32,402 nt of DNA from a virus (IMGVR_UViG_3300046474_000592:1-32402), one strand, 5' to 3'; shown: positions 2,835 to 30,289, numbered from the stretch's first letter. Notes: generated by a model not told the origin, from the letters alone. Translations and numbers: made by a program.

Positions 2835-4706
2835 TCAAGTGCGCTCCGCCAGTGAAACTGACAGCGCGCGATTTTTCTTAACCTTAATAGTCGGGCCGGT
2901 CGTGTGCTGTGCTGGGGAGTCAGCTTTTGTTTTCAGCTTCAAAACGGCGCGCTCCGACGTTGGAGTAGCTTGAGTTGCCGGGGTAACTGGCTCTGATGCT
3001 GTAGCCTCGTCCGTTTGGCATTCAGCGACAATGTTTGTTGGCGAGATATCGAGCTGGCGATAGTCCTTTGTTGGATCAAGGCCTTCGAGCTTCGCCAGTG
3101 CTTGCAGCGTGTCAACGCCATAGTTGTCTTCGAGACGATCTACCTCCCAATGCTGAACGCTGAGGAACTCCCCAATGAGCAGGTCGAGAACAATCATTTG
3201 GATTTGAGCGTATTCAGCTTGATCGATGTACGCGCACACGCCAGCATCGCTGCGGTCTTCGAACGAATATAGGTCGCCAATCAGGTCATCTGGCAGCGCA
3301 TGCTCACGTACGAGTAGCTTCGCAATTTCACGGAACATCTCCAAGCTAAAGCCGGTATGCGTTGAGCTGCGGATCTCCCGGTATAGTGCTACGCGCTGAG
3401 ACGTGATTTCTGCCGCAAGCCGTTCCTTGTCAGCCTTCTCCTGCTGCTTCTTTACAGCGGCGGCTGTGGGCTTGCCTGTTGATGGCTCATTGGCGATGCG
3501 GGCTTGATGCACACTCTCGGATTCGCATGCCCCGGCCTTCTCCAGCGCGGCTTGAATATCCGCGCGATAGTAAGCTGCTTCCACGCTGCCATCTTCGCGC
3601 TTGATGTACTTCGCTGGCGACGGCGTTTCGACTTCGGCCAAGTGCTTCTTGACGGTTCCGGCCATGCCGGTCGCTGGCGATACGCGGTCGAAGGCACTCA
3701 AATGGTGGTCTACCGTTACGAGCTCAGCATCGCGGCTCCAGTTTTTGGCGGTAATGTTCTTGGCTTCTTCGCCTTCTAGAACCGGAATGCCGGACTTGTT
3801 TGCGACGACGATCACGCGCTGATAGTGTGCAGCCTTCTTTTCGGCAAAGCAGTCTGGATCTGTGCATACGTCTGCACTCTTTGCGTCGGCGTAGATTTCT
3901 GGTTGATTGCCGGTTCGCTTCGGGCACTTCACGCAGTTGCCGGCACTCGCCAGCAACTTGGCATCTTTGACGTCAAACGGCGCGTCAACCAATTCGAGCG
4001 TATAGCGGCTTGCGATGTGAAGTGCAGCTTGGCGAACGGACATTGGCTCGCCATTGTGCTGCGGCGCCATAATTTCATTGAGTGCCTTGTCTTGCAGGTC
4101 CGGCGTCGGTATGCGTGCGATTAGCAAAGCGGTCGAGGCAGGGAAGCGCTTTACATCATCGAGGAACATCTCACGCGCCTTGAGCGACAGCGCGCACAGT
4201 TTGAGCCGTGCGTAGACATAGGATCGGCTCTGCTTCACCCTTGCCGCCAACTGATCGGCGTTGTAGCCGTGCTGGAGCATTAACTGCTCAAATCCGATTG
4301 CTTCTTCTAACGGGTGAGGGTTCTCGCGTTGGATGTTCTCCAGCAGTTGAATCTCCGCCGCCTGTTTGTCAGTCAAGACACGAATGCTGGCAGGAGCTTT
4401 GCTCAGGCCGGCGAGTACGGCTGCGCGGAAGCGGCGCTCGCCAGCGACGATTTCCAGAATTTGCGGCGCGGCGGCGGTTGGTACAACCGGGCGCATGACG
4501 ATAGGCTGCAAAATGCCAACCTCAGCGATGCTATCGGCCAACTGCTGCAATGCTTCTGGATTGAAGCGCGTGCGGTTGGTGTACGAAATACGCACCAGAT
4601 AAAGTGGGACGTCGCGATAGCCTTCTGTCAGCAAGTCATCGGCGATGATTGCTTGATCAGCGGGTGCGAGAACTACTGGTGGTGGAAGTGCGACGAGCTT
4701 ACTCAT
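2835..4706 (-). CDS. ParB/Spo0J-family DNA-binding protein (orphan, no ParA)
   Basis: A 623-aa ParB homologue. The N-terminal CTP-binding domain shows the GERR box (residues 89-92) followed by RAA, and the ENIQRENPHPLEEA segment (123-136). A helix-turn-helix follows at about 149-172. A four-cysteine knuckle (Cys258, Cys261, Cys281, Cys286) follows, then a long charged, partly coiled C-terminal half with a Thr/Ser/Ala-rich tail. It is about twice the length of chromosomal ParB. No ParA ATPase is encoded in the window, so classical partition is not supported; ParB proteins with this motif act as CTP-dependent DNA clamps loaded at palindromic parS sites. Five copies of one palindrome in this window are candidate sites, one of them inside this gene at 3862-3877. 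A regulatory or genome-organising role is inferred. Confidence 0.88.
   Translation of the reverse strand: MSKLVALPPPVVLAPADQAIIADDLLTEGYRDVPLYLVRISYTNRTRFNPEALQQLADSIAEVGILQPIVMRPVVPTAAAPQILEIVAGERRFRAAVLAGLSKAPASIRVLTDKQAAEIQLLENIQRENPHPLEEAIGFEQLMLQHGYNADQLAARVKQSRSYVYARLKLCALSLKAREMFLDDVKRFPASTALLIARIPTPDLQDKALNEIMAPQHNGEPMSVRQAALHIASRYTLELVDAPFDVKDAKLLASAGNCVKCPKRTGNQPEIYADAKSADVCTDPDCFAEKKAAHYQRVIVVANKSGIPVLEGEEAKNITAKNWSRDAELVTVDHHLSAFDRVSPATGMAGTVKKHLAEVETPSPAKYIKREDGSVEAAYYRADIQAALEKAGACESESVHQARIANEPSTGKPTAAAVKKQQEKADKERLAAEITSQRVALYREIRSSTHTGFSLEMFREIAKLLVREHALPDDLIGDLYSFEDRSDAGVCAYIDQAEYAQIQMIVLDLLIGEFLSVQHWEVDRLEDNYGVDTLQALAKLEGLDPTKDYRQLDISPTNIVAECQTDEATASEPVTPATQATPTSERAVLKLKTKADSPAQHTTGPTIKVKKNRALSVSLAERT
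3862..3877. repeat. Dispersed 16-bp palindrome, copy 1 (parS-like candidate)
   Basis: GTGCATACGTCTGCAC, one base away from the perfect palindrome GTGCAGACGTCTGCAC. It lies inside the parB-like gene, where it encodes residues around Cys281 of the zinc knuckle. It is the leftmost of five copies. Confidence 0.7.
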
Positions 4707-4719
4707 GTTTTGGCCTATG

Positions 4720-5229
4720 TTAATCGCGGTCGTTTGCCGCGATGCGTTTGAAATCGATACGTGGTATTAAGCGGCGTGGGCGCTTGCGGGCATAGCTGCT
4801 AATTGCGATGCTGAGCGCTGGATGCTGCATAGCGTCTTTGAACGGCTGCTCAATCCGCAGCGCTCGGTGCGCCGCCTCTAGCAGGCCGCTATTTGGCTCG
4901 GTTGGGTGGACGGCAATAGAGCAGGGCGTTTCGCCCTGTGCGCTCGCGGCAGCAGCGTAGGCATGAAAGCTACTAGGCGCTTTGGTCAGATATGCCGTGG
5001 TTGCGCCAATGGTGCGAACCTTGACGATGAACTCAGTTAGAAGATGCTGATGAACCGCTGCGGCCAGTCGCAAATCATCGGCGGTATCGCCGGGCGTTCC
5101 GGCGAATCCAGTGGATGCGAGGAGTTCAATCGCACTGCTTGCGGCCGCGCTTAACTTTGCGAATGAGGCGTCAACTGCGGCCGCGCAGTCGTCAATGGTG
5201 CTGGCAGATAAGGTGCGTGGCACGTTCAT
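4720..5229 (-). CDS. Hypothetical left-operon protein, alanine-rich
   Basis: A 169-aa protein that I do not recognise. The N-terminal two thirds is Ala/Ser-rich and probably helical. The C-terminus is basic, with a KRPRR cluster near residues 148-152, so nucleic-acid contact is possible. It starts at ATG 5229, whose ATGA overlaps the stop of the preceding 67-aa gene, which indicates translational coupling. It ends 13 bp before parB, so the three genes are one transcription unit from PL. Confidence 0.6.
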   Translation of the reverse strand: MNVPRTLSASTIDDCAAAVDASFAKLSAAASSAIELLASTGFAGTPGDTADDLRLAAAVHQHLLTEFIVKVRTIGATTAYLTKAPSSFHAYAAAASAQGETPCSIAVHPTEPNSGLLEAAHRALRIEQPFKDAMQHPALSIAISSYARKRPRRLIPRIDFKRIAANDRD

Positions 5230-5429
5230 TTGCGCACCTCGGCCGTCGATGGTGGTGCGGTGTGTGCAGACGTCTGCACGCGTTGCACTGGCGGGTTGAG
5301 GTTGCGGGCCTTGATGTAGTCGTGACCTTTCAAGCCCTGAAAGATATCGTTACTTACGGCGACCGTTCGCACCTTGCCAAATAGATCGTCGTCGATTGTG
5401 TGAGTGCTGCTCAGGTTTGATACGTTCAT
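5226..5429 (-). CDS. First gene of the left operon, hypothetical
   Basis: A 67-aa protein that I do not recognise, acidic in its first third and polar and proline-containing towards the C-terminus. It is the first gene after PL. ATG 5429 follows GGAG by 7-8 nt, but that site is part of a predicted mRNA hairpin (5434-5458). Copy 2 of the dispersed palindrome lies in its 3' end and is translated as VQTSAH. By lambda analogy a leftward first gene could be an antiterminator or early regulator, but nothing in the sequence proves this. Confidence 0.55.
   Translation of the reverse strand: MNVSNLSSTHTIDDDLFGKVRTVAVSNDIFQGLKGHDYIKARNLNPPVQRVQTSAHTAPPSTAEVRK
5264..5279. repeat. Dispersed 16-bp palindrome, copy 2 (perfect)
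   Basis: A perfect GTGCAGACGTCTGCAC, inside the 3' end of the 67-aa gene and about 40 bp before the start of the next gene of the left operon. Confidence 0.75.
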
Positions 5430-5433
5430 TTTC

Positions 5434-5458
5434 CACTCCGTTGAAAGATGGCGGAGTG
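5434..5458 (-). promoter_or_regulatory. RBS-sequestering hairpin in the PL leader
   Basis: CACTCCG and CGGAGTG form a 7-bp stem around an 11-nt loop. On the leftward transcript the 3' arm carries the GGAG ribosome binding site of the 67-aa gene, so folding would hide it. The hairpin sits right at the predicted 5' end of the PL transcript. Confidence 0.5.
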
Positions 5459-5459
5459 A

Positions 5460-5488
5460 ATATTACTAATTGGTAATTTATAAGTCAA
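5460..5488 (-). promoter_or_regulatory. Leftward early promoter PL
   Basis: On the minus strand, -35 TTGACT (5483-5488) and -10 TAATAT (5460-5465) are separated by exactly 17 bp, a near-consensus sigma70 promoter. The -10 overlaps operator OL1 and the -35 abuts OL2, so repressor binding should block it. It drives the parB-int operon. Confidence 0.85.
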
Positions 5489-5531
5489 CACCAAATGGTG
5501 ATGTTATTGGAAAAAATTACCATCTTGTAAG
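5462..5531. promoter_or_regulatory. OL operator cluster (three sites)
   Basis: Three 16-bp sites related to ATTACCAATTGGTAAT: ATTACTAATTGGTAAT at 5462-5477 (one mismatch), AACACCAAATGGTGAT at 5487-5502 (12 of 16) and ATTACCATCTTGTAAG at 5516-5531 (12 of 16). Centres are 25 and 29 bp apart. They overlap and flank PL as in the lambda OL region, and match the OR sites 1.2 kb to the right. Confidence 0.75.
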
Positions 5532-5541
5532 AGAAGAGGCG

Positions 5542-5564
5542 AAAAAAATCGGCCGTAGCCGATT
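5542..5564 (-). terminator. Rho-independent terminator after the RHH gene
   Basis: Read leftward, AATCGGC-TACG-GCCGATT is followed by a run of T. It lies 54 bp after the stop of the ribbon-helix-helix gene and just before the OL cluster, so it insulates PL from upstream transcription. A second, AT-rich hairpin (TTGCTTT/AAAGCAA) lies at 5571-5587. Confidence 0.8.
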
Positions 5565-5617
5565 GGTGCGTTGCTTTTTGAAAGCAATTGGTTAGTGGTA
5601 CTCGGTGCCTATGAGAT

Positions 5618-5854
5618 CTAGCGCTCGCGAACTGTGCGTAAAATTTCTTTTGCTAGGGCTTTGATCTCGGAATTCTCTTCTTTGAGCGTCTCCAAGGAAG
5701 CCAGCACCGGGGTTTGCGTGAGCCGGGCTAGGATTTCAGCGTTGATAGAACGCTCGTTCAGATCGGCAGCCTTCTTGATCTCCGCGTGTAGTTCCTCGGG
5801 TATCCTAAGAGCCGTTTTGATACGAATGGTATTCTGCTTTTTTGCTATGGTCAT
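5618..5854 (-). CDS. Arc/Mnt-type ribbon-helix-helix regulator
   Basis: A 78-aa protein with the Arc-family pattern: a short N-terminal basic strand containing NTIRIKTALRIPEEL (about 8-22), then helix A with HAEIKKAADLNERS and helix B with INAEILARLTQ. The C-terminal part (about 50-78) is a charged probable coiled coil. It should bind DNA as a dimer through the beta-strand. The start chosen is ATG 5854, whose ATGA overlaps the stop of an upstream short reading frame; a GTG further up (5902) has its Shine-Dalgarno about 20 nt away and fits less well. It lies between the OL operators and the repressor, so it probably acts in the lysis/lysogeny switch. Confidence 0.8.
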   Translation of the reverse strand: MTIAKKQNTIRIKTALRIPEELHAEIKKAADLNERSINAEILARLTQTPVLASLETLKEENSEIKALAKEILRTVRER

Positions 5855-5913
5855 CGCGCGATTCTCGCGCGTTTGTGTACAATGGTGGAAAAGTGCTGAC
5901 ACTTTGGTGGCAC
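5851..5913 (-). CDS. Short leader peptide coupled to the RHH gene
   Basis: A strong AAGGAGG (5923-5929) is followed 9 nt later by GTG 5913, opening a 20-codon frame (starts V-P-P-K-C-Q-H-F) whose TGA overlaps the ATG of the ribbon-helix-helix gene. An ATG at 5922 in the same frame is too close to the Shine-Dalgarno. No other ribosome site for the regulator is apparent, so its translation may depend on this leader. The peptide itself resembles nothing I know. Confidence 0.4.
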   Translation of the reverse strand: MPPKCQHFSTIVHKRARIAR

Positions 5914-6032
5914 TTTTACCATCCTCCTTACTCTAGTCTCAGCAGCAATAATCCCATCAAAAAGTTGCCCAAAGGATTCAGGTATTCTTTTTGAGATATA
6001 TTCGCCATTTACAATAAACAACAAGTAACACA

Positions 6033-6209
6033 ATGCCCGGAACGATGACGCCAGAAACACGCCGTTTATTAGATGCCTATTTGGCAATGAACTTGGAGGC
6101 TAGGGAGCAGATTTTGAAAGTTGCGGAGGGCATGGCTGCCCGCCACCCAGCAGAGCGCACGGTGGCGTTAAGACTGGTTTCCAATAACGGTGACAAAGCG
6201 TTTCTCTGA
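6033..6209 (+). CDS. Small hypothetical protein converging on the repressor
   Basis: A 58-aa ORF starting M-P-G-T-M-T-P-E-T and ending at TGA 6207-6209. Most of it reads as one or two amphipathic helices (LLDAYLAMNLEAREQILKVA), a pattern common in helical tails of phage regulators. The 3' end overlaps the 3' end of the repressor gene by 42 bp on the opposite strand. No clear Shine-Dalgarno is seen; TTGAGA and a TACAAT-like element lie upstream, but at a poor spacing. An accessory or antirepressor role is only a possibility. Confidence 0.5.
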   Translation: MPGTMTPETRRLLDAYLAMNLEAREQILKVAEGMAARHPAERTVALRLVSNNGDKAFL

Positions 6210-6632
6210 AACTTCCGCTGCAATAATAATCGAGCTTCGCCCGACATCTGTGGCTTGTCGGTAGTTTGTTAGCAGTTCAAGTTCTGTCATGTCGACATAC
6301 ACGAGAGCTGCTTTTCCCTTTTCAATGTGGGCCAATGGCACGAGATGCGGTGCTGCTATTTGCGCGACTTGTGTCTGCGCTGCTGGCGCAGCAACATGCT
6401 CGTCAGATGCTGTGTCGGTTGGTTCTTGTGGCGTGTCCAGCCAGCCGGCGGGCAGGCCGGCCTTCCTTTCCAGATTTCGTGCTTTCTTTTCGCCAAATGA
6501 CTTCGTGCGAAGTAAGCCCGAGATTTCCCCCTGATTCTCACCGGTCTCATCGATAAATCGCGCTTGCGAATCGTCGTAGCGCTCTTGGATTAGCTGGCGA
6601 AGCCTTTGGCGGCGAATGTCCTGTATCTGCAT
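6168..6632 (-). CDS. CI-like phage repressor without peptidase domain
   Basis: A 154-aa protein. Residues about 1-65 form a lambda-repressor-like HTH domain (QARFIDETGENQGEISGLL as the recognition region, then GWLDTP), as in betaproteobacterial phage repressors. The middle is Ala/Gln/Thr-rich and flexible, and residues about 110-140 form a short helical segment. There is no S24/LexA peptidase domain with a Ser-Lys pair, so RecA-stimulated self-cleavage is not expected. It is divergent from the Cro-like gene across the OR operators, which supports the repressor assignment. ATG 6632 has GGGGA about 9 nt upstream. Confidence 0.8.
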   Translation of the reverse strand: MQIQDIRRQRLRQLIQERYDDSQARFIDETGENQGEISGLLRTKSFGEKKARNLERKAGLPAGWLDTPQEPTDTASDEHVAAPAAQTQVAQIAAPHLVPLAHIEKGKAALVYVDMTELELLTNYRQATDVGRSSIIIAAEVSEKRFVTVIGNQS

Positions 6633-6651
6633 GGCTTGATTGTCCCCGCCG

Positions 6652-6707
6652 ATTACTGTTTAGTAAATAACCAAACGGTATTGACCTAGTCATTACCAAT
6701 TGGTAAT
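6652..6707. promoter_or_regulatory. OR operator cluster (three sites)
   Basis: A perfect palindrome ATTACCAATTGGTAAT at 6692-6707, ATAACCAAACGGTATT at 6667-6682 (12 of 16) and a weaker ATTACTGTTTAGTAAA at 6652-6667 (11 of 16). It lies between the divergent repressor and cro genes. The same motif recurs at OL. Confidence 0.8.
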
Positions 6708-6709
6708 AT
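6681..6709 (+). promoter_or_regulatory. Rightward early promoter PR
   Basis: TTGACC (6681-6686) and TAATAT (6704-6709) are separated by 17 bp. The perfect operator occupies the spacer and reaches into the -10. Transcription would start about 6-7 nt after the -10, at or next to the cro ATG at 6716. Confidence 0.85.
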
Positions 6710-6715
6710 TTGCAA

Positions 6716-6967
6716 ATGGAAAGCTTACTTAAATTTCTAAATGGCATGGAAAAGGCAGATCGGCTGGCATTCTGCTTGGCCTGCGATACCTCGGAACGCT
6801 ATCTCAGAAAGGCGATTTCGATCAATCAACAACTGGGCGAAGGCCTGTGCATACGCATAGAGCGTGAATCGCAGCGACAAGTTTGCTGCGAGATGCTTCG
6901 TTCTGATGTTGACTGGGCCTATCTCCGTGGCACCTGTGGGTGTTGCTGTGCCTTTCCCAATACCTAG
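6716..6967 (+). CDS. Cro-like regulator (YdaS-type)
   Basis: An 83-aa HTH protein. The start was moved to ATG 6716. The pattern LLKFLNGMEKADRLAFCLACDTSERYLRKAI, split over two helices, followed by SQRQVCCEMLRSDVDWAYLRGT, matches the YdaS/Cro family found opposite phage repressors. It should bind the OR sites and favour lytic growth. The ATG is only about 7 bp from the PR -10 and no Shine-Dalgarno fits, so the mRNA is probably leaderless. A Cys-rich C-terminus (CGCCC) is unusual. Confidence 0.8.
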   Translation: MESLLKFLNGMEKADRLAFCLACDTSERYLRKAISINQQLGEGLCIRIERESQRQVCCEMLRSDVDWAYLRGTCGCCCAFPNT

Positions 6968-6980
6968 AACTTTACACGTC

Positions 6981-6993
6981 TGAAACGGTTTCA
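6981..6993. promoter_or_regulatory. Inverted repeat upstream of ymfL-like gene
   Basis: TGAAACGGTTTCA is a perfect palindrome around one central base, 25 bp before the YmfL-like ORF. It could be an operator for another regulator, but it occurs only once and no matching promoter was identified. Confidence 0.3.
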
Positions 6994-7018
6994 AAAACCA
7001 TAATTTTTAGGAATTAGT

Positions 7019-7507
7019 ATGGATCTTCGCAAGGCAGTTGTACGAATGGTGAATGCAGTGAACGGCGGCTGGACTGTGGCTGCTGCGCATTTGGGAATGA
7101 CGGAAAACGCGCTCCGCAATCGCGTTTACGAGACCAAGGGACAGACGTTATCGACTAATGACAAACTCGCGCTTCAAGACTTATCGGGTACGCGGCATTT
7201 TGCCGAAGCGGTGGCGGCGATTAGCAATGGTACGTTTACCCCGTTGCCCGAAGTGGGGCAGCTTGCCAGCGATTCCGTGCAGCAGCAGTTCAATCAAGTT
7301 TACGTACAGTTGGGCGAGCACTTTAAGCTGTTCATGGCCGCCATTGATGACGGTGTCATCGATACCGTAGAGCGAGCCGACATTCAAGAGCATGGTGCGG
7401 AATTGCATCGAAACGTCGAGCAGTTGCGCGTGCTGATGTTTAGCATGTACTGCCGTGATACCGGTAAGGCCAAGGTCGGCGTTTCTGCGGAGGTGGCTCA
7501 TGGCTAA
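7019..7507 (+). CDS. YmfL-family putative regulatory protein
   Basis: A 162-aa protein of the YmfL type, a CII-like regulatory family. The N-terminal half has an HTH pattern: VNAVNGGWTVAAAHLGMTEN, then ALRNRVYETKGQ, and a GTRHFAEAVAAISNGTF segment at about 57-74. The second half is helical. It follows cro in the rightward operon, the place of cII in lambda, so a role in lysogeny control is inferred. Its stop overlaps the next gene's start. Confidence 0.75.
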   Translation: MDLRKAVVRMVNAVNGGWTVAAAHLGMTENALRNRVYETKGQTLSTNDKLALQDLSGTRHFAEAVAAISNGTFTPLPEVGQLASDSVQQQFNQVYVQLGEHFKLFMAAIDDGVIDTVERADIQEHGAELHRNVEQLRVLMFSMYCRDTGKAKVGVSAEVAHG

Positions 7508-7928
7508 TCACGAACTGCCTCGCCGCGAGAGCTCGCGGCACGTCGCGTTGCGCGCCCTGCATAACATGGGCGGTGATGGCAAGATTCCAGCTTGGATGCG
7601 TGTGCTGAACTGGAAAGGCAAGCAGTTCTTCTTTTATCGCGATGTGGTGGCCGGATTAGAGCGCTGCGGCTTGGTCGAAACGGAGGGCGGTGAATGTAAG
7701 GTTACTCCAGCCGGCCGTATCTATTTAGGTGTACCAGTAGATCAGGCTCCCAAGGAACCCGCTATTCCTGTTGGCCCGCGCTATGTGCCGCCGCAACGAC
7801 CACTCAATCTGAATCGTCATCGCCCAGCTATGCCAACGCGGGACGGCGCATTCGATTTTCGCAGCATCCCGTCGCGCATGGCTAATGAAAGCGTCCCATA
7901 CAAGGGCGGTGCCGCGCGCTTCCTCTAA
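7500..7928 (+). CDS. Hypothetical winged-helix-like early protein
   Basis: A 142-aa protein starting at ATG 7500 inside the end of the YmfL gene (8-bp overlap). An upstream in-frame start at 7455 is less likely. Residues about 12-75 (VALRALHNMGGDGKIPAWM, FFFYRDVVAGLERCGLVET, then VTPAGRIYLG) look like a winged-helix fold ending in a turn typical of such domains. The C-terminal half is proline- and arginine-rich and probably disordered. I do not recognise the family; a DNA-binding role fits the position before the replication genes. Confidence 0.55.
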   Translation: MANHELPRRESSRHVALRALHNMGGDGKIPAWMRVLNWKGKQFFFYRDVVAGLERCGLVETEGGECKVTPAGRIYLGVPVDQAPKEPAIPVGPRYVPPQRPLNLNRHRPAMPTRDGAFDFRSIPSRMANESVPYKGGAARFL

Positions 7929-7945
7929 AGGCTGATACACCTTAT

Positions 7946-9073
7946 ATGAATTACTACCCTCATCACATCGGCGACTTCAACAGCTCGACCCGGCATTTAA
8001 CGCGCTTAGAGCGCGGTATCTTCCGGGACATGCTGGATCTGTACTACGAGAAGGAAAGCCCGCTGCCCGCAGACCAGCGCACGTTGTTTCGCCGTTTGCT
8101 CATCGTGACGCCTGAGGAGATCGAAGCGGCGACGCAGGTGCTCGCAGATTTCTTTGTGCTGACCGATGCCGGTTGGGCTAATGCCCGCTGCGAACAAGAG
8201 ATCAGTGACTATCGCGCCGGTCAGCGTAACGCGAATGCTGGCGCACGCGCTCGTGCATGGCAGGCCGTCGAGAAACGACTGGCGACTGACATTGCCGGGA
8301 CTAACTACCTCATGGCCGAGCAGCGGTTGTTGGAGTTCGTGCGTCAGTACGGCGGCTCGCCAGAGACCGATGCGCAGGCTGAACGTATCGCCAGCTTGAA
8401 GCAGCCACCCAAAGGCGGTTTTGATTTCGACGCTGCCGGCATCGGCTTTCTTTCGACTGGCAGTTCGGCTGGTGCGCCAGCAGTTGATTCGGAAGCCAAT
8501 CGCGGATCAATCGCGGATAGTCCTCGGATCAACCGCGATGTATCCGCGCATGAACCGCAGATCAATCGCGGATCAATCGCGGATGATGCGCGGATGCCAA
8601 TCGCTGATCCCAACCAGAACCATAACCATAACCAGAACCATAACCATAACCAGAACCACTATACCCCCCCAACACAGCCAACACAGATCGGAGACTGCGC
8701 ACGCGGTGCGGTGGCCTTGAGCGTGGAATTTCGCAAGCATGGGGTGATGACGCAGCCAGCTAACCCGGTCTTGCAGGAAATGGCCTCGCAAGGTGTAACG
8801 CCGCAAACCGTGGCCGCTGCCTGTGAGGAAGCCCGCAAGACGAAGCCCGGATCGTTAAACCTCGGCTACGTGAAGGGCATCTTGGAGCGCTGGGCGCGAG
8901 AGGCAACGGCCATGAACGTGTCCGGTGCGCGACAACAGGCACGCCATCAGGGAAACAACTTGACCGCCACGCGCATGGCGACCATTGCAGGATTGACCGG
9001 AGGAGCAACGCATGTTGCAGCAGACAACATCATCGACATTACCCCATCAGCCGATACCGCTCAGTTGGGTTGA
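7946..9073 (+). CDS. DUF1376/YdaU-type replication initiator (O-like)
   Basis: A 375-aa protein. The N-terminal DUF1376 domain (about 1-95; YYPHHIGDFNSSTRHLTRLERG, split after ST, then a compact winged helix) is common in phage replication initiators. A linker (about 150-250) contains repeated NRGSIAD and NHNQ elements whose DNA forms the candidate origin. The C-terminal part (about 255-340) is helical and may contact the P-like loader. ATG 7946 has only a distant AAAGG. Its last 62 bases overlap the P-like gene. Replication initiation is inferred by analogy to lambda O and the downstream P-like gene. Confidence 0.8.
   Translation: MNYYPHHIGDFNSSTRHLTRLERGIFRDMLDLYYEKESPLPADQRTLFRRLLIVTPEEIEAATQVLADFFVLTDAGWANARCEQEISDYRAGQRNANAGARARAWQAVEKRLATDIAGTNYLMAEQRLLEFVRQYGGSPETDAQAERIASLKQPPKGGFDFDAAGIGFLSTGSSAGAPAVDSEANRGSIADSPRINRDVSAHEPQINRGSIADDARMPIADPNQNHNHNQNHNHNQNHYTPPTQPTQIGDCARGAVALSVEFRKHGVMTQPANPVLQEMASQGVTPQTVAAACEEARKTKPGSLNLGYVKGILERWAREATAMNVSGARQQARHQGNNLTATRMATIAGLTGGATHVAADNIIDITPSADTAQLG
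8496..8664. repeat. Iteron array and AT-rich repeats: candidate phage origin
   Basis: CAATCGCGGAT occurs exactly at 8497, 8508, 8563 and 8574, with weaker copies near 8530 and 8598. Paired copies are 11 bp apart and the pairs 66 bp apart, so all face one side of the helix. They are followed at 8612-8664 by an A-rich block built on AACCATAACCATAACCAG. Iterons plus an AT-rich stretch inside the initiator gene is the layout of lambda ori. Confidence 0.65.
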
Positions 9074-9719
9074 ATCGCTCTTCAAACGGATGTTGTTTTC
9101 GTATGGAACGCGCTTCGCGGATCTTTGGGCGGGCGTCGATAGCAACGAGCTGAAAGCATTTTGGGCAGATCGACTGGGCGCATTGACGCGCGATGAACTC
9201 GCTACCGGCTATCGCATGATGGAGTCGTTGGGCAGACCGCCGACACTGCCGGAATTCATCAAGCTCTGCCGTCCCAATCTCGATCCTGAGGTTGCGTTTT
9301 ACGAGGCGATAGAGCAAGGGCGTAAGCGTGAGCTGGCAGACCCTGACAACCCGGACGAGTGGTCGCATGCCGCGATCTACTGGGCGTGGGTCAAGGTTGG
9401 AGGATTTGCGATTGCCAATCAGGGATACGAGGCGTTGCGCTCGCGCTGGTCGGAAACCCTGCGCAATTGCGCCAATGATCCGGGCCTGCCGGCGGTGCCG
9501 AAGAAGGAGCTGGCACTGCCCGCGCCGGGTAAGACCAGATTACAGCCGGAGCGTGCAAGAAAGCTTCTGGCGGATTTGAAAGTAAAAACCATGCCGGCCA
9601 GTGTCATTAGCCGGAACACGGATTGGGCGGAATCGATATTGGAGAGGAATCAGCGAGGCGAGATAGTGAGCATCGCGGCATTGGAGATGGCAATGGCCGC
9701 GTTAGGCAGGCGGACGTAG
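9012..9719 (+). CDS. Replication protein P-like (helicase loader)
   Basis: A 235-aa protein. Residues about 16-90, with the patterns SLFKRMLFSYGTRFADLW and FWADRLGALTRDEL followed by RPPTLPEFIKLCRP, match the phage replication protein P family. This family delivers the host DnaB helicase to the initiator at the origin. The C-terminus is helical and basic. ATG 9012 has a good GGAGG 8 nt upstream and lies inside the O-like gene, so the pair is coupled. Confidence 0.8.
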   Translation: MLQQTTSSTLPHQPIPLSWVESLFKRMLFSYGTRFADLWAGVDSNELKAFWADRLGALTRDELATGYRMMESLGRPPTLPEFIKLCRPNLDPEVAFYEAIEQGRKRELADPDNPDEWSHAAIYWAWVKVGGFAIANQGYEALRSRWSETLRNCANDPGLPAVPKKELALPAPGKTRLQPERARKLLADLKVKTMPASVISRNTDWAESILERNQRGEIVSIAALEMAMAALGRRT

Positions 9720-9761
9720 TGAACGAATAGCGAATGAACGAGGGCGGAAAGGAAGTTGGGT

Positions 9762-10334
9762 ATGGGGGCAATGTTGGAAGTTGAAGGTCTGGTGTTTGTT
9801 GAGGAACCAAAGCGCGTCGCCGCCGCGCGCGTGGAGCATGATGTGCGTGGCCTTGCGCCGATGGGACAGCGCGCGTTTCATGCACGCATGGAGAACTGGC
9901 GTCGTGTTGTCACCAGCAAGGCGGGCGCGGGTGCATCGGCATCGGTGTGCGCAACGTGGGCGCGGTGGTACGTTGCGCTGCGCACGTCGGAAGCGCCACC
10001 GCAGCAAGACGTGCTGGACGAGAAGTACAAACCGCCGCGCCCGCTTGTGTCGGCTGACGAGCTAGACGGTTGGCTGGTGGAGGAGGCATATCGCAAACTG
10101 TCTGATTTCAATGACCGTATGGCGCTCAAGTGCCGTCACATCTATGGCTTCGATGAAGCGCGCACGCGCACGAAATTGAATGGTGTTCGTGGTTCGCATG
10201 TGCGCTTGGTGATTGCGCGTGCAGAAAAAAATTTACAAACCATCTTGAAAAAGCTTGACGATCAAAATATGATTCGACCTACAACTTGTCTGCCGGGGTG
10301 TCCCGAGCCTACAGCCGCAACGGCGTCTCCTTGA
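9762..10334 (+). CDS. Q-like late regulator candidate
   Basis: A 190-aa protein. ATG 9762 was chosen because AAGGA lies 8 nt upstream. The C-terminal part (VEEAYRKLSDFNDRMALKC, then HIYGFDEARTRTKLNGVRGSH and a helix with VIARAEKNLQTILKKL) resembles the compact helical C-terminal region of phage Q antiterminators and related DUF1133-type proteins. The location supports this: last early gene, with a strong promoter in its 3' end and a terminator 38 bp after its stop, before the packaging genes. The family call is tentative. Confidence 0.5.
   Translation: MGAMLEVEGLVFVEEPKRVAAARVEHDVRGLAPMGQRAFHARMENWRRVVTSKAGAGASASVCATWARWYVALRTSEAPPQQDVLDEKYKPPRPLVSADELDGWLVEEAYRKLSDFNDRMALKCRHIYGFDEARTRTKLNGVRGSHVRLVIARAEKNLQTILKKLDDQNMIRPTTCLPGCPEPTAATASP
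10245..10273 (+). promoter_or_regulatory. Candidate late promoter PR'
   Basis: TTGAAA (10245-10250) and TATGAT (10268-10273) are 17 bp apart, inside the 3' end of the Q-like gene. A transcript starting near 10280 would meet the terminator at 10372 after about 90 nt, as lambda PR' meets tR'. Confidence 0.6.
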
Positions 10335-10371
10335 TGGAGGCGCGCGTGCGTCTGTAGCGTAACAAGTAGCC

Positions 10372-10399
10372 AAAGGCCCGCCAACCAGCGGGCCTTTTT
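10372..10399 (+). terminator. Rho-independent terminator (tR'-like)
   Basis: AAAGGCCCGC and GCGGGCCTTT form a 10-bp stem with a 6-nt CAACCA loop, followed by T residues. It separates the early operon from the packaging genes. Confidence 0.88.
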
Positions 10400-10412
10400 C
10401 ATTTCTACGGTC

Positions 10413-10428
10413 GTGCATACGTCTGCAC
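10413..10428. repeat. Dispersed 16-bp palindrome, copy 3
   Basis: GTGCATACGTCTGCAC, identical to copy 1. It lies 13 bp after the tR'-like terminator and before the HNH gene, at the early/late boundary. Confidence 0.7.
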
Positions 10429-10444
10429 AAAATCGGAGGCGACG

Positions 10445-10795
10445 ATGCCCATCTCAGCGCCGCGTCCTTGTTCCTTTCCGACTTGCTCAGTGCTGGTGCG
10501 TGACGGCAGTGGCCGATGCGCTAAGCATCCTCGCGAGCAGTGGCAGCGAGCGAAGCCAACCAAGCGCATCACTGGACGGCGATTGCAGGCGATGCGTGCA
10601 GCGCTGTTTGCTCGTGAACCGTTGTGCGCTGAATGCACAAGGCAGGGACGAGTAACGCCAGCAACGCAGCGCGATCACATCATACCGCTGGCAGAAGGCG
10701 GCGTAGATGACGAGACGAACGAGCAGGGCTTGTGTGAGCCATGCCACGATGAAAAGTCAGCGCGTGAAGCAGTGCGTGGACGACGCAGGGCGTAG
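10445..10795 (+). CDS. HNH endonuclease (packaging-associated)
   Basis: A 116-aa HNH nuclease. Zinc-binding CAEC (about 60-63) and CEPCH (about 98-102) pairs surround the core RDHIIPLAEGG...N. Small HNH proteins next to terminase genes in HK97-type cos phages assist cohesive-end cleavage by the terminase. ATG 10445 has GGAGG 5 nt upstream. It is the first gene after the late terminator. Confidence 0.9.
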   Translation: MPISAPRPCSFPTCSVLVRDGSGRCAKHPREQWQRAKPTKRITGRRLQAMRAALFAREPLCAECTRQGRVTPATQRDHIIPLAEGGVDDETNEQGLCEPCHDEKSAREAVRGRRRA

Positions 10796-16360: not shown

Positions 16361-16364
16361 ATTT

Positions 16365-16380
16365 GTGCAGACGTCTGCAC
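16365..16380. repeat. Dispersed 16-bp palindrome, copy 4 (perfect)
   Basis: A perfect GTGCAGACGTCTGCAC between the post-capsid hairpin and the Shine-Dalgarno of the next gene. Confidence 0.75.
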
Positions 16381-19315: not shown

Positions 19316-19344
19316 CTCTTTACTTACATCTATAGAGGCAACAC

Positions 19345-19794: not shown

Positions 19795-19811
19795 AAGCCA
19801 TCGCGCGGGCG

Positions 19812-20120: not shown

Positions 20121-20128
20121 GAGGTTCA

Positions 20129-25093: not shown

Positions 25094-26022
25094 CGGCCAA
25101 GATAAGTGTTCTTGTGCCTGTTGAAGTTGACAGCAAGGTGCTGACGTCGAGCACCGCTGTCGAAACCTATCAGGACTACGTGGCAACAACCACGTATGCA
25201 AAAGGGAACCGGTGTGTTAGTCCAACGACGCACCGGATTTACGAAAGTCTCAAAGATATTAACAAGGGCAACGATCCAACGGATACGGCCAACTTAACCG
25301 GCGCTACACCTTGGTGGCTTGACTATGGGCCGGCCAATCGCTGGGCCATGTTCGATACCGATGTGAGCACGGCGACGGTCGCGCCGTCGCCGTTCAGCGT
25401 AGTGCTCCGACCGGGTTTTTTCAAGGATCTTTACCTTGGCGGGTTAGACGCCGATGAGATTGATCTTGTCGTGCGCAGTGCTCCCGGCGGCGAAGTGATT
25501 CGTGCCACGCATACGGTGTTGGAAGGCTCGAAGCCCGATGACTACGACGACTATTTCTTTAGTCACTTCAAACCACAGATCGATTTTATCGAGCAAGACA
25601 TTGATACCTACAACGCCGCCGAGATCACGGTGACGCTGACCAAGGCCAGCGGCAACGTGAAGTGCTCGGTAATGGATGTGGGCGACCTTGTCGAGCTCGG
25701 TAGGACGCTTAGCGGGGCAAAGGTCACGCCGAAGACGTTCAGCTACATCGAGCAGGACAAGTTCGGCGGCGCGAAGATCACGCGGCGCGGTGCGGCCAAT
25801 GATCTTGCCGTGTCCGGCGTGCTGGAGCGTAGCGATGCCGGCGCGGTACACCAAGCGCTCTTGAGCGTGCTTGATATGCCGTGCCTTGTCATGGCGAGCC
25901 AGCACGTTGATTACAGCCCCTTGCGCTGCTTTGGGCTCATTAGCGGCGGTATCGAGTATCCGAACATTCAAGACAAGTGCATGTTGAACATTAACGTACA
26001 GGGTTTAATTAAATGGCAGTAA
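25090..26022 (+). CDS. Tail tip protein, possible carbohydrate-binding module
   Basis: A 310-aa protein. Residues about 30-80 (TYAKGNRCVSPTTHRIYESL, then NKGNDPTDT and WWLDYGPANRWAMFD) resemble the aromatic pattern of CBM5/12-like modules that recur in tail proteins. The rest is beta-rich and unfamiliar. The position directly after the tape measure corresponds to distal tail or baseplate proteins. Its start overlaps the tape measure stop. Placement in the tail is firm; binding specificity is unknown. Confidence 0.65.
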   Translation: MTAKISVLVPVEVDSKVLTSSTAVETYQDYVATTTYAKGNRCVSPTTHRIYESLKDINKGNDPTDTANLTGATPWWLDYGPANRWAMFDTDVSTATVAPSPFSVVLRPGFFKDLYLGGLDADEIDLVVRSAPGGEVIRATHTVLEGSKPDDYDDYFFSHFKPQIDFIEQDIDTYNAAEITVTLTKASGNVKCSVMDVGDLVELGRTLSGAKVTPKTFSYIEQDKFGGAKITRRGAANDLAVSGVLERSDAGAVHQALLSVLDMPCLVMASQHVDYSPLRCFGLISGGIEYPNIQDKCMLNINVQGLIKWQ

Positions 26023-27827
26023 CACAACCTCCCGAAATTACCGCGCCGCCGGTCGCGCCACAGCGCAAAGACCGCAATACCTTTGCCGACCGGGTAGACG
26101 CTTTTCTGACGTGGATGATTGCAGCGGTAGCGCAATTTATGGCACTGGCTGCAAACGTCTGGGCCAACGCGACCGAGGCTTACAACGCCTCGTTGCAGGC
26201 GGTCGCATCGGCGACTATCGCATCGGCTGCTGCGAACACGGCGACGCTGACGGCCAACGCATTGCCGTTCAACGCTGCGACGAACTACACGCAGGGGCAG
26301 TCGGCCATCTCGTTGCAGAATTTCGTGGTGTATCGGCGCAAGTCTGCCGGCAGCTCGGCAACCGATCCCGCCGCCGATGCTGCGAACTGGCAGCGCGCGC
26401 TCGCCGAGCCGTTTGGCGCGGTCGATGCGCTAAGCATTACTGGCGATACAGCACTGACGCTCACTGCGCGAAACGTTCTGCGCGTGTCGTCCACCATGAA
26501 GAATTCTTCACTGCGCTTGCCGGCGGCGAACACTATCGTCAATGGCAATGGCACCTACATGGTGAAGAACGTCGGCGCGTTTGCGTTGCCGGTGCGCGAC
26601 AGTAGTGGAGTGCTTTTGGCAGTGCTTCCGGGCGGTGGTGGCTGCGGCGTCTTTGCCTGCGAAGATTTCTCGACGGCCTCAGGCCTGTGGTTAGTCATTG
26701 CTCCCGAAAACATCGGTTCGATTGCAACCGGCGGTGCAACGATCTGGGCTACGTCGGCATGTATTTGGATCGGCGTTTCCGCCATTCCCGGCGCAATCGA
26801 CAAGGCGTTGATCTGCTGGGCCGGTGGTGGCTATATGTACGCGGCCATTGCAACGCGTAGCGCTGCCGGCAGTGTGTCCATCGGCGGCGTTGCGACGATT
26901 GGTGCTTGCGATCTTGCATCCGGCGCGATGTGCATTGCACTATCGTCCACGGCGGGCTTTGTCACTCTACCTTACAGCGCTGGGCCATCTCATACGCTGT
27001 ATGCGCTGGCATTGAATGTGGCGACCAATGCCGTAAGTACGGCAGGCTCGAAGGCGCTCTACGGTAACTACGGCCTCCCCAACGGGGCGTTTGATCCGCA
27101 AGTGCAGGCAATTGATGCGGCGCGCGCAGCATGGGTGTATTCCTCTTCGACGGCATTGGCGTTGATCGTTGCGCAGCACAACGGCGCGGCAGCTCCAACG
27201 TTTTCGGAAACTTCCTTGGCGGCGACGCTGAGTAACTACCCTTCGATCTGTCTTGCCCATGTAGGTGGCGGGAATCTGCTGCTGGCCGGCAGCAGCGGGG
27301 CAACACTGTACTCGACAACGGGTGTGGCGACAGCGAGCCTTGGCACGCGTAGCTGGACCGGGCAATCGGTCATGGAAGGCAATAGCAACGCGGCAGGTTC
27401 GCGGATGTTCTCGCAGGGCGGCAACCGTGCAGCCGTGGTGACTGGCGGTGCAGCCAATGGCGTACGTGAGCGCACATTTACGCTCGCCAGCTCGGGCGCA
27501 GCGCCGAGCTTGCCGTCCGGTCATCGTCACTTTCCGTCCGGTACGAGCTCGAACGGCGTCGCCAACTTTACCGGCGCGCTGATCGGTTCGACGTACTGCA
27601 CGATTGGTATGACAACTGGCGGACGTGCCAATGGCCTGCGGCTTATGCGCTACGCCAACGATGCGCTGTATGAGTTCGCCTATGGCTGGCCGGACGATAT
27701 GCCGATTACCGGCTCGGCCGGCTTGAGCTGGAGCGCCGCAGGCGTGAACGGGCAAAACGCGATTGCCGTGTCGCTCGACTTTTCCAACTATCCACAAGTT
27801 GCAGCGCTGGAGGTCTGCAAAGCATGA
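26013..27827 (+). CDS. Probable tail fibre / receptor-binding protein
   Basis: A 604-aa protein. A proline-rich start is followed by helices at about 25-85 (DRVDAFLTWMIAAVAQF, then an Ala/Thr-rich stretch), typical of an attachment region. The remainder is a Gly/Ser/Ala/Thr-rich beta-type region without Lys/Glu-rich helices, as in trimeric fibres, ending in a short compact tip. A downstream fibre-assembly-like gene supports the call. It overlaps the upstream gene by 10 bp. Confidence 0.7.
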   Translation: MAVTQPPEITAPPVAPQRKDRNTFADRVDAFLTWMIAAVAQFMALAANVWANATEAYNASLQAVASATIASAAANTATLTANALPFNAATNYTQGQSAISLQNFVVYRRKSAGSSATDPAADAANWQRALAEPFGAVDALSITGDTALTLTARNVLRVSSTMKNSSLRLPAANTIVNGNGTYMVKNVGAFALPVRDSSGVLLAVLPGGGGCGVFACEDFSTASGLWLVIAPENIGSIATGGATIWATSACIWIGVSAIPGAIDKALICWAGGGYMYAAIATRSAAGSVSIGGVATIGACDLASGAMCIALSSTAGFVTLPYSAGPSHTLYALALNVATNAVSTAGSKALYGNYGLPNGAFDPQVQAIDAARAAWVYSSSTALALIVAQHNGAAAPTFSETSLAATLSNYPSICLAHVGGGNLLLAGSSGATLYSTTGVATASLGTRSWTGQSVMEGNSNAAGSRMFSQGGNRAAVVTGGAANGVRERTFTLASSGAAPSLPSGHRHFPSGTSSNGVANFTGALIGSTYCTIGMTTGGRANGLRLMRYANDALYEFAYGWPDDMPITGSAGLSWSAAGVNGQNAIAVSLDFSNYPQVAALEVCKA

Positions 27828-28447
27828 AAACTATTATCGTTTTGGATGGCATCGCCTTGTTGGCGGCTGACGCGGTGACGCTGTTCCCCGATCACGCCAT
27901 CATCAATGCGACGACGTTTGACGAGGCAGGCCTGCCGCTAGACGGCCAGCGCTTCCAGTGCTTCAACGACACGATGCAGGCGATCAGCGTCGATGAGCTG
28001 CCCGATCCTTGGGTAGCTGGCGCGTATCGCTTTGCGGACGGCCAGCTCGTTCTCGATGCCGATCTGCCGGCGTGGCGCGGCTACTTAGCCGAGCTCGATG
28101 ACGCAAAGCAGAAGATGAATGCGCGCATCAACGGCTGGCGCGCCGACGCCAACGGGACGACGTTCCCCTACAACGGCAAGCATGTGCAGTGTGACTTGAC
28201 CAGCACCATTGATCTGATGGGAACCGCCAATCAAGTTGCGCTGCACGGCACCTTCCCGCCGAATTTTCCGGGCGCGTGGAAGGCGTATGACAACACGTAC
28301 ATTCCGCTGCCAACGGTCGAGGATTTCAAGGCGCTCTATGAGGCGTTTACGCAGCGCGGCTCGCTTAATTTCCTGCATGCGCAGGAATTGAAATCGCGCG
28401 TTGCTGCGGCGCTGACGCTGGCGCAGCTCGACGCCATTGAATGGTAG
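27824..28447 (+). CDS. DUF4376-type tail fibre accessory protein
   Basis: A 207-aa protein whose C-terminal half (about 95-200) matches DUF4376: a helix with KQKMNARINGW, then TTFPYNGKHVQCDLTST and W-K-A-Y-D-N-T-Y-I-P-L. It lies directly behind the fibre gene with an ATGA overlap, the usual place of fibre assembly or fibre-associated proteins. Confidence 0.7.
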   Translation: MKTIIVLDGIALLAADAVTLFPDHAIINATTFDEAGLPLDGQRFQCFNDTMQAISVDELPDPWVAGAYRFADGQLVLDADLPAWRGYLAELDDAKQKMNARINGWRADANGTTFPYNGKHVQCDLTSTIDLMGTANQVALHGTFPPNFPGAWKAYDNTYIPLPTVEDFKALYEAFTQRGSLNFLHAQELKSRVAAALTLAQLDAIEW

Positions 28448-28455
28448 GGGTGCCG

Positions 28456-28938
28456 ATGATCTTGAAAACTCAGCCGGCGGGCTTCCATGCCGCGTTTTAT
28501 AAGGGCACCCGTCCGGGCTTCGCCGGCATCTACAGCCGTGTGGTGCGTGGCTGGGAAGGCGGTTCATATAGCCATTGCGAGCTGGTGTTCAGTGATGGCC
28601 GTTCGGCGTCAGCTTCGTTCATCGATGGTGGCGTGCGCTTCAAGGTTATCGAGTATGACCCTGCGAGCTGGGACTACGTGACGCTGCCGGTGGAGCTGGA
28701 AGCTACGGCGCGTGAGTGGTTCGTGAGTCACGAGGGCGAGGCGTACGACATTATGGGCAACGTACATTTTGTTATCGGCTTCGTCCCCGAGTCGCGTCGT
28801 AAGAAGTTCTGCTCCGAGGCGCTCGCCGCTTCGCTTGGCATCCCTGACGCTTGGCGCTTCGGTCCCAACGCGCTGGCCGCTGTCCTGCAATACGTGGTAG
28901 CCACGCCGGATGCGTTGCTGCTGGCTGCGCCTGTTTAG
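28456..28938 (+). CDS. Permuted NlpC/P60-like papain-fold enzyme
   Basis: A 160-aa protein starting at ATG 28456, with AGGGG 5 nt upstream; an in-frame ATG at 28441 lacks a ribosome site. A His in SYSHCELVF (His40) precedes a Cys in KKFCSEALAASLG (Cys119), the order of circularly permuted NlpC/P60 (YiiX-like) enzymes. The residues between are an acidic, Trp-containing alpha/beta region. It may act on cell wall or lipid amides at the tail tip or during entry. Activity is inferred only. Confidence 0.7.
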   Translation: MILKTQPAGFHAAFYKGTRPGFAGIYSRVVRGWEGGSYSHCELVFSDGRSASASFIDGGVRFKVIEYDPASWDYVTLPVELEATAREWFVSHEGEAYDIMGNVHFVIGFVPESRRKKFCSEALAASLGIPDAWRFGPNALAAVLQYVVATPDALLLAAPV

Positions 28939-29004
28939 GCGCTGCGAGAGTCAGCCCGCCGCAACGGTGGGCATCGTTTCCGGCCTCTGTGGCCGATCAA
29001 CTTG

Positions 29005-29026
29005 AACCCGCTTCGGCGGGTTTTTT
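29005..29026 (+). terminator. Terminator-like hairpin before the lysis genes
   Basis: AACCCGC-TTCG-GCGGGTT followed by T residues. It separates the tail genes from the lysis cassette. No separate promoter is visible downstream, so late transcription must read through. Confidence 0.8.
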
Positions 29027-29040
29027 ATTTCTATTCCCGA

Positions 29041-29256
29041 ATGACAATCTCGCACGAAGCAATCTCTTCTGTGGGGGCGAAAATCGTCCCTGTTACTCCG
29101 CCTGCGGTTGTGGTGGGTCTTAACGTCGCCGGCATCACATTGCCCGACATAGTGCAAATGCTGTCCATCTTCTGGTTGGCGCTCCTCATTTTCGACAAGC
29201 TCTGGTTGCTGGTTCTGCGCTGGAAGAAAGGGAAGGCCGACGATGAACCAACTTAA
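29041..29256 (+). CDS. Holin, small two-TM type
   Basis: A 71-aa membrane protein starting at ATG 29041 (an upstream TTG at 29002 would place the hairpin inside the gene). Two hydrophobic stretches, about 16-34 (VPVTPPAVVVGLNVAGITL) and about 40-60 (MLSIFWLALLIFDKLWLLVL), are followed by a basic WKKGK tail. The gene order holin-endolysin-Rz/Rz1 supports the call. It should form the inner-membrane lesion that times lysis. No clear Shine-Dalgarno. Confidence 0.8.
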   Translation: MTISHEAISSVGAKIVPVTPPAVVVGLNVAGITLPDIVQMLSIFWLALLIFDKLWLLVLRWKKGKADDEPT

Positions 29257-29755
29257 TCGAAGCGTCGTCATGGTGAGCGCCATGCTGCTGGCCGCGCTCA
29301 CGCAGCTCGAAGGCACGCGCTATGTACCGTACGAAGATATCGTGAACGTCTGGACGGTCTGCCAAGGCTATGCCGGCAAGGATGTTGTCCGCAACAAGGT
29401 GTACACGCCAGCCGAATGCAAGCAGCTTGCCGAGAGCCAGCTCGTCGCGAAGGGCGCGGAGGTACTTCGCTGCTCCAAGGTGCCGATTGCCCAGCATGAA
29501 TATGATGCCTACACGCTGTTTGCGTACAACGTTGGCACGTCGGCCTTTTGTGGTTCGTCGCTGTTGAAGAAACTCAATCAGGGCGATCACGTCGGCGCAT
29601 GTAACGGCCTGCTTGCTTGGGACTATGCCGGCGGGAAGAGGGTGGCGGGCTTAACTCGCCGCCGGCAGTTTGAGCGCAGCATTTGCCTTGGCGAGGCGAA
29701 GCTGGCCGGTGTCGCTACGCCGCGCCGTAACCCGGATCGAGTTGCCTATGTTTAG
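29243..29755 (+). CDS. SAR endolysin (GH24 lysozyme)
   Basis: A 170-aa T4-type lysozyme. The catalytic triad is visible as Glu23 (LEG), Asp32 (YED) and Thr38 (VWTVC). Residues about 8-20 (VVMVSAMLLAALT) form a weakly hydrophobic signal-anchor-release segment with small residues, as in P21 and P1 lysozymes. It would be exported by the Sec system, held in the inner membrane and released when holin depolarises it. It overlaps the holin end by 14 bp. Confidence 0.88.
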   Translation: MNQLNRSVVMVSAMLLAALTQLEGTRYVPYEDIVNVWTVCQGYAGKDVVRNKVYTPAECKQLAESQLVAKGAEVLRCSKVPIAQHEYDAYTLFAYNVGTSAFCGSSLLKKLNQGDHVGACNGLLAWDYAGGKRVAGLTRRRQFERSICLGEAKLAGVATPRRNPDRVAYV

Positions 29756-30272
29756 CCGCATGAAGGGCGTGGTGCTGCCGACGCCCGCTCGCTGGGCGGC
29801 CTGCGCATTGATCGGTGCCGTTCTATTCGGCTTGGGCGAGCTCGACGGTCAGCGTCGCGCTGGTCAAGCGCACATCGATTACGTGACGGCACAGGCGGAG
29901 CGCGCCATAGCCATCACTAAGGCACAGGCCAAGGTCGTTGTGCAGACGGAAATTCAATACCGCGACCGGATTAAGACGGTCTACTTGAAAGGAGAAGTAA
30001 TTGAAAAGCAAGTGCCTGTATACGTCACGGCTGTTGACGATGCTGTTTATGGTGTCAATGCTGGCTTCGTGCGCACATACAACGCCGCTTGGTCAGGTGA
30101 TGATCCCGGAGCCGCCGCCGAGTTTGACCGAGAACCCGCCGGCATTTCGATCTCTGAAATCGCGGAAGCCGACGCCTTCAACGCAACAGCATGCCGCGCG
30201 TGGCGTGAGCAAGCCTTAGCGTGGCGCTCGTTCTATGGTCAGATCAAGTCTGCAACGGACTCGCCGCATTAG
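29748..30272 (+). CDS. Rz i-spanin
   Basis: A 174-aa protein starting at ATG 29748, overlapping the endolysin stop. A single N-terminal membrane anchor (WAACALIGAVLFGLGEL, about 16-32) is followed by a periplasmic coiled coil. It pairs with Rz1 to fuse inner and outer membranes at the end of lysis. A longer frame open from 29670 lies within the endolysin gene and is not needed. Confidence 0.82.
   Translation: MFSRMKGVVLPTPARWAACALIGAVLFGLGELDGQRRAGQAHIDYVTAQAERAIAITKAQAKVVVQTEIQYRDRIKTVYLKGEVIEKQVPVYVTAVDDAVYGVNAGFVRTYNAAWSGDDPGAAAEFDREPAGISISEIAEADAFNATACRAWREQALAWRSFYGQIKSATDSPH
30001..30219 (+). CDS. Rz1 o-spanin lipoprotein, nested in Rz
   Basis: A 72-aa lipoprotein in the +1 frame wholly inside Rz. 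TTG 30001 follows a strong AAAGGAG. The signal peptide LLTMLFMVSMLASC ends in a lipobox with the acylated Cys24. The mature part is rich in Pro (PEPPPSL), as usual for Rz1. It should sit in the outer membrane and bind Rz across the periplasm. Confidence 0.85.
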   Translation: MKSKCLYTSRLLTMLFMVSMLASCAHTTPLGQVMIPEPPPSLTENPPAFRSLKSRKPTPSTQQHAARGVSKP

Positions 30273-30273
30273 T

Positions 30274-30289
30274 GTGCAGACGTATGCAC
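30274..30289. repeat. Dispersed 16-bp palindrome, copy 5
   Basis: GTGCAGACGTATGCAC, the reverse complement of copies 1 and 3. It starts one base after the Rz stop, in the 38-bp gap between the late operon and the converging DUF4145 gene. Confidence 0.7.

Follow-up and report, generated by a model that had tools for sequence, protein, structure and literature searches.

Orphan ParB proteins are common on phages, but on which DNA sites do they act and what purpose do they serve? This question is raised by the virus record IMGVR_UViG_3300046474_000592, a complete IMG/VR entry of 32,402 nt that was analysed over its whole length and is called the window in the following. It encodes a long ParB and carries five dispersed copies of a 16-bp palindrome, GTGCAGACGTCTGCAC, which an earlier reading of this DNA (the original prediction) had proposed to be a candidate phage parS system. 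Is the palindrome the site of this ParB, and for what would an integrating phage use the pair? Our comparisons of sequences strongly support the palindrome being parS-like and belonging to the orphan ParB that the phage itself encodes. For the proposal as a whole, i.e. a site loaded by ParB, a clamp closed by cytidine triphosphate (CTP) and a role in organising or regulating the lytic genome, we estimate a probability of about 0.78.

Five copies of the palindrome at gene borders

The palindrome is present exactly at 5264 and 16365 and with a single change at 3862 and 10413 (G6 to T in both) as well as at 30274 (C11 to A), precisely as the original prediction had described, and the window contains no further copies with up to three mismatches. 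By chance 0.22 copies are expected, and none of 100 dinucleotide shuffles reached five. The placement at functional boundaries proposed before is corrected in detail (Table 1). The copy within parB covers the codons S277-T282 and the one assigned to the left operon lies inside the gene 5226-5429, while the copies described as following the late terminator, the capsid gene and the lysis genes are located behind the terminator 10372-10397 and ahead of the HNH ribosome-binding site, between a hairpin and the ribosome-binding site used by the next gene, and one base past the stop of a spanin-like gene, respectively. Site 3 is located at the early/late border. An open reading frame called at GTG 16365 begins within site 4; the true start of the gene following the capsid gene is probably TTG 16393, located behind AGGAG, so that the palindrome falls in the leader of that gene. 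The sites mostly follow gene ends and none overlaps a recognised promoter.

The palindrome and the phage ParB occur together

Searching related phages, a check suggested by the original prediction, was done in both directions. Starting from the palindrome, IMG/VR was scanned and 50 contigs among the matches listed were tested, long ones being preferred; 39 of these encode a long ParB, the open frames measuring 508-920 aa. With a control palindrome of comparable composition only 32 stretches were obtained, and a ParB was found in 5/30 of the control contigs (Fisher p ~1e-7), the difference persisting if only contigs of at least 30 kb are considered (33/38 versus 3/14). All 50 tested contigs have 1-8 places with at most one mismatch from GTGCANACGTNTGCAC, whereas the reversed control pattern matches in only one contig. 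Starting from ParB, a search with an alignment of 28 ParBs, made without use of the palindrome, yielded 80 loci each from bacterial genomes and viral contigs; a search of the viral contigs with a single ParB had given no match. With the parB frame masked, the exact motif occurs 41 times at the genome loci and 77 times at the viral loci, i.e. 118 times, compared to zero or one occurrence for each of 59 other palindromes made from permuted letters. Both directions support the link between palindrome and ParB that had initially been a guess. We also counted shared genes in 31 palindrome contigs, taken whole or in large part: relatives of parB are found in 21, of the CII-like gene in 14, of the repressor in three and of an Arc-type gene in two, and no gene of the window is common to more of them than parB. 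As this set was partly picked for ParB, the unbiased figure is the 39 of 50 given above.

In 17 host genomes (~94 Mb) we found 56 exact copies, 52 of which are in prophage; judged by eye, these form in each genome a single cluster of prophage size around the locus of ParB. The motif is therefore not equally common across the host chromosome, the outcome that would have spoken against the original prediction. ParB loci of the relatives sit in contigs of chromosomal origin, the largest having 4.8 Mb, i.e. in the integrated prophage state, and together with the integrase of the window this bears out the claim that the phage integrates. Hosts of the ParB-bearing relatives are mainly Oxalobacteraceae (Duganella, Massilia, Janthinobacterium, Undibacterium), Comamonadaceae and Rhodocyclaceae, the phages with palindrome and orphan ParB constituting a family of integrating phages in soil and water bacteria.

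The control scan uncovered a contig, G052 (L410, IMGVR_UViG_3300042198_000156), with five GTGCGGACGTCCGCAC-type copies in 15 kb (1529, 3250, 6857, 8384 and 14669), one of them being the hybrid GTGCGGACGTCTGCAC, and a divergent ParB of ~747 aa with another recognition helix. It is possibly a specificity-switched relative, and looking like a specificity variant it supports the pairing of site and ParB; a search for relatives of this variant ParB gave one distant match only.

Selection acts on the 16-mer as DNA

The copy within parB specifies S-A-D-V-C-T including the invariant C281, and could in principle be a mere by-product of the conserved peptide ADVCT. We rejected this explanation, as the codon choice is bent to keep the 16-mer. 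The exact palindrome is kept in 61 of the 85 ParBs having this peptide, the alanine codon within the site is GCA in 96% compared to 19% in the remainder of these genes, and in 66% the site opens with AGT, a codon making up 6% of the serine codons elsewhere. In 101 distinct contexts outside parB the conservation starts and stops sharply at 16 bp, with flanks sharing no common sequence. Variation is limited to positions 6 and 11, which change independently of each other, 26 of the 101 contexts being C/C mismatches and further ones A/C or T/C. This favours a protein dimer that recognises two half-sites over an RNA hairpin. Bacterial parS has the same ACGT at its centre. These comparisons show computationally that the 16 bp are under selection as DNA.

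Site positions are also retained among relatives. The slot of site 2 recurs in G027, G028, G003, G011 and G029. The slot behind the capsid gene is occupied in 6/13 phages (0.61 expected), including Aval, whose capsid is 26% identical and which still has a site 9 bp downstream of the capsid gene. VarioGold, too, has a site 31 bp downstream of the annotated capsid gene. The slot preceding the HNH gene is occupied in 6/17 phages (0.67 expected), and four of the five phages having a spanin-like gene carry a site no more than 8 bp from the end of this gene (0.09 expected). Near-complete ParB phages have 4-8 dispersed sites each, spaced slightly more evenly than random (mean longest gap 0.40 versus 0.48, for related phages that are not independent).

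A ParA-free ParB with CTP-binding motifs

The protein comprises a CTP-binding fold, a ParB helix-turn-helix (HTH) domain (PF17762), a motif of four cysteines (Cys4) and a C-terminal region of ~270 aa. It carries GERR and ENIQR, and in the relatives GERR is found in 152/160 and ENxQR in 159/160 proteins. A ParA-type ATPase (PF13614) was detected in 0/32 phages and is absent from the window record, and a ParA-binding motif was detected in 0/160 ParBs. The original description as a long ParB with GERR and no ParA was thus accurate. Sequence matches in the PDB are Spo0J, Noc and ParB as well as KorB (E=3e-4). An AlphaFold model (mean predicted local distance difference test score, pLDDT, of 86) is matched by Foldseek to ParB, Noc and KorB over ~200 N-terminal residues only; for the Cys4 motif and the C-terminal ~270 residues, the latter folded in the model, Foldseek gave no PDB match. 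The Cys4 motif directly following the HTH is likely a zinc site, which is not seen in canonical ParB. The recognition helix reads KSRxYIYGRLKL with near-invariant Y163, Y165 and R167; for chromosomal proteins, four specificity residues were reported to tell parS from the Noc site (PMC7383237).

The parB operon is predicted to lie under a repressor operator

CI-type operators, ATTACYAATTGGTAAT, are located at 5462 and 6692 over divergent pL- and pR-like promoters around the repressor gene. Weaker ATTACYAATTGGTAAT copies are present at 5487, 5516 and 6667. An operator shared between pL and pR is found in the window, VarioGold and Aval, with a different sequence each time and at the same two places. 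Because the promoter of the parB operon shares the repressor operator in all three phages, ParB would be silent in the lysogen and produced during lytic growth, by analogy to lambda pL, suggesting that it is probably a lytic early protein rather than a plasmid partitioner or a prophage silencer. The idea that ParB silences or organises the resting prophage, put forward originally, is accordingly disfavoured. By position, gp169 and gp67 are possible partners of ParB.

Proposed mechanism and alternative explanations

We propose a model according to which the palindrome GTGCANAC/GTNTGCAC would be the DNA loading site, analogous to parS, for ParB of the same phage. Upon lifting of the CI-like repressor the left early operon gp67-gp169-parB would be expressed, ParB dimers would bind the four to six dispersed sites via the HTH, close around the DNA with CTP and slide as clamps along the ~35-kb genome, resulting in a genome-wide nucleoprotein complex without ParA. 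Its most likely use would be the organisation or long-range regulation of the lytic phage genome, as for KorB, VirB or Noc, and not segregation.

Several observations weigh against this model. Twenty of the 160 ParB relatives, with N-terminal parts that are 38-50% identical, lack a site with at most one mismatch in the examined stretch, meaning that phages with this ParB do not always carry the palindrome nearby, as had been asked originally, and de novo clustering of palindromes at these 20 loci yielded only GC-rich chance families and no replacement motif. The contigs G005, G014 and G038 exceed 35 kb and have more than one site and no ParB match. A canonical C-terminal ParB dimerisation domain was not recognised, Pfam giving only PF02195 and PF17762; the promoter and operator calls are consensus matches; and common descent accounts for part of the slot conservation seen between the nearest relatives. 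On the ParB tree, site presence clusters and appears to have been lost or missed many times (29 changes versus 37 shuffled), partly because loci are incomplete. In G038 (L191), downstream of a gp169 relative, the place expected for parB (~30950-34621) holds a frame of 1011 aa with an apparent membrane segment; here ParB may have been replaced while the sites persist.

Could the palindrome belong to something other than ParB? If it were the operator of another phage regulator, such as the CI-like repressor, CII/CP76 or an Arc-type protein, the ParB link would be a by-product of phage relatedness. The location of three sites in 5' leaders or at gene borders and the presence of CII relatives in 14 of the 31 palindrome contigs fit such an operator, but repressor and Arc relatives are far rarer (3/31 and 2/31), CI operators have other sequences varying between phages while the palindrome is constant, Burkholderia phage KS9 has CII and no palindrome array, and within parB the codon choice preserves the site. 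Codistribution and the differing CI operators therefore make it very improbable that another regulator owns the palindrome, a possibility the original prediction had itself named. KS9 was also considered as a carrier of the array and rejected, having a short ParB of 275 aa and no such array. Still less credible is an action as RNA, in the form of a processing or termination hairpin, or as a repeat serving mobility or packaging: the sequence can be folded on paper into a stem of 6 bp with the loop ACGU and two copies follow terminator-like hairpins, but positions 6 and 11 are unpaired in the combinations observed, the flanks share no sequence and copies within reading frames are under synonymous constraint.

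Granting the pair of ParB and site, its job has to be considered. A true partition system of an extrachromosomal prophage, using a borrowed host ParA or none, would fit the N15-like dispersal of the sites, and partition without ParA was proposed for the integrase-free Lacachita phages (PMC10286716). We consider this improbable, as the phages integrate, with an integrase present and relatives inside large chromosomal contigs, and as the parB operon lies under a repressor operator and would be repressed in the lysogen; moreover, the ParBs lack the ParA-binding motif. A sliding clamp loaded at several points during lytic growth is the simplest remaining reading, and it could serve long-range transcription control of the KorB/VirB type, with clamps sliding to promoters, perhaps locked there by a partner, e.g. 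gp169, and setting early and late expression. This role, for which we hold a tentative but substantial expectation short of even, is in line with KorB and VirB being gene-regulating CTP clamps with dispersed sites (PMC11790492), with site 3 behind a terminator at the early/late border, with the conserved neighbours gp67 and gp169 and with one site lying within parB. Against it, none of the sites lies over a recognised promoter, most come behind the end of a gene, and a KorA-like partner was not identified. Genome organisation and transcription control are near equal, with a slight preference on our side for organisation, given that the sites keep clear of recognised promoters and lie at the borders of genes. 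For a wider generalisation the odds are about even: temperate phages may share a widespread lytic-phase genome-organising or regulatory system, consisting of a repressor-controlled, ParA-free ParB-CTP clamp with four to six dispersed conserved sites, one of which lies in its own Cys-motif codons, and with sister lineages of switched specificity (GTGCGGACGTCCGCAC, G052).

Relation to known ParB systems

In the Spo0J and Caulobacter ParB-parS and the Noc-NBS systems, as in the phage, a 16-bp palindrome is combined with an N-terminal CTP fold and an HTH; parS has the same central ACGT, and Noc has dispersed sites. The spo0J gene of B. subtilis contains a parS, which the site inside the phage parB recalls. 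In contrast, the half-site is GTGCAN in the phage and TGTTTC in chromosomal parS, the recognition helix KSRxYIYGRLKL differs from the parS-reading GKSRSHVANxLRL, and the phage protein is distinguished from chromosomal ParB and Noc by the Cys4 motif, the large C-terminal region, its location on a phage and the missing ParA motif. Phage N15 SopB has several sites spread over the genome. Both N15 and P1 resemble the window phage in combining a phage ParB with several sites, which in N15 are dispersed; they have SopA/ParA and live as plasmids, unlike the window phage with its integrase, its repressor-controlled operon and no ParA, so that the comparison to N15 drawn originally applies to the dispersed sites only. 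Among ParABS features, putative replicon-specific parS-like sites are present, and ParA, the ParA-binding motif and plasmid maintenance are absent. The RK2 plasmid protein KorB and VirB from plasmids of Shigella share with the phage system, as proposed here, a ParB-fold clamp acting beyond partition, dispersed operators and a mobile element (PMC11790492); compared to KorB, the phage system has another operator, no KorA found, an integrating phage as carrier, a putative regulatory role and a low similarity.

Orphan prophage ParBs without ParA motif were counted in a 2025 survey of ParB CTPases, which in the parts consulted assigns them no DNA site, genome layout or regulation (PMC12704722); the present analysis adds a candidate site and its conservation. 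The VarioGold paper names ParB only as a domain hit and mentions no palindromes or inverted repeats (PMC9658991), and the authors of a 2023 paper knew of no characterised phage with ParB alone (PMC10286716). Our literature search, outside of which lay many subscription papers and all preprints, returned no report of the motif or of a phage-encoded ParB with parS and CTP. With a defined 16-bp site, the cultured VarioGold with its integrated inducible prophage and a clear prediction on timing, the function of an orphan phage ParB becomes directly testable. If true, the model would carry the CTP sliding clamp beyond chromosomes and plasmids into the lytic cycle of phages that integrate.

Phage record and annotated features

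The layout of the phage is lambda-like, with integrase, CI-like repressor and CII-like gene (Table 1).

Table 1. Coordinates of candidate sites, genes and control elements in the window.
Feature	Position	Strand	Remarks
parS-like site 1 (candidate)	3862..3877	.	inside parB, codons S277-A-D-V-C-T282
parS-like site 2 (candidate)	5264..5279	.	in small gene 5226-5429 towards its 3' end; this gene opens the parB operon
parS-like site 3 (candidate)	10413..10428	.	between 10372-10397 terminator and ribosome-binding site of HNH gene (HNH/terminase operon)
parS-like site 4 (candidate)	16365..16380	.	31 bp past major capsid gene, between post-capsid hairpin and ribosome-binding site of next gene
parS-like site 5 (candidate)	30274..30289	.	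one base past stop of spanin-like gene (end 30272), between convergent genes
parB, 623-aa orphan ParB	2835..4706	-	Pfam PF02195 E=5e-22, PF17762 E=1.4e-9
CxxC...CxxxxC codons (C258, C261, C281, C286)	3849..3935	-	invariant in 60 aligned ParBs; pattern in 160/160
gp169, conserved 169-aa neighbour upstream of parB	4720..5229	-	in 10/31 palindrome contigs
gp67, conserved 67-aa neighbour	5226..5429	-	first gene of operon; in 8/31 palindrome contigs
pL-type promoter of parB operon (consensus match only)	5460..5488	-	overlapped by operator ATTACTAATTGGTAAT (5462-5477)
CI-like repressor gene	6168..6632	-	PHROG transcriptional repressor
pR-type promoter	6681..6709	+	operator ATTACCAATTGGTAAT (6692-6707)
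CII-like gene	7019-7507	+	
Integrase	1539-2570	-	

A search of the phage collection gave no phage near-identical to the window; its terminase large subunit is 61% identical to the counterpart of Burkholderia phage KS9. At the left end, beyond the integrase, lies a gene for a ClpP-like SDH-type serine protease (1-963, minus strand), which is either cargo or host flank.

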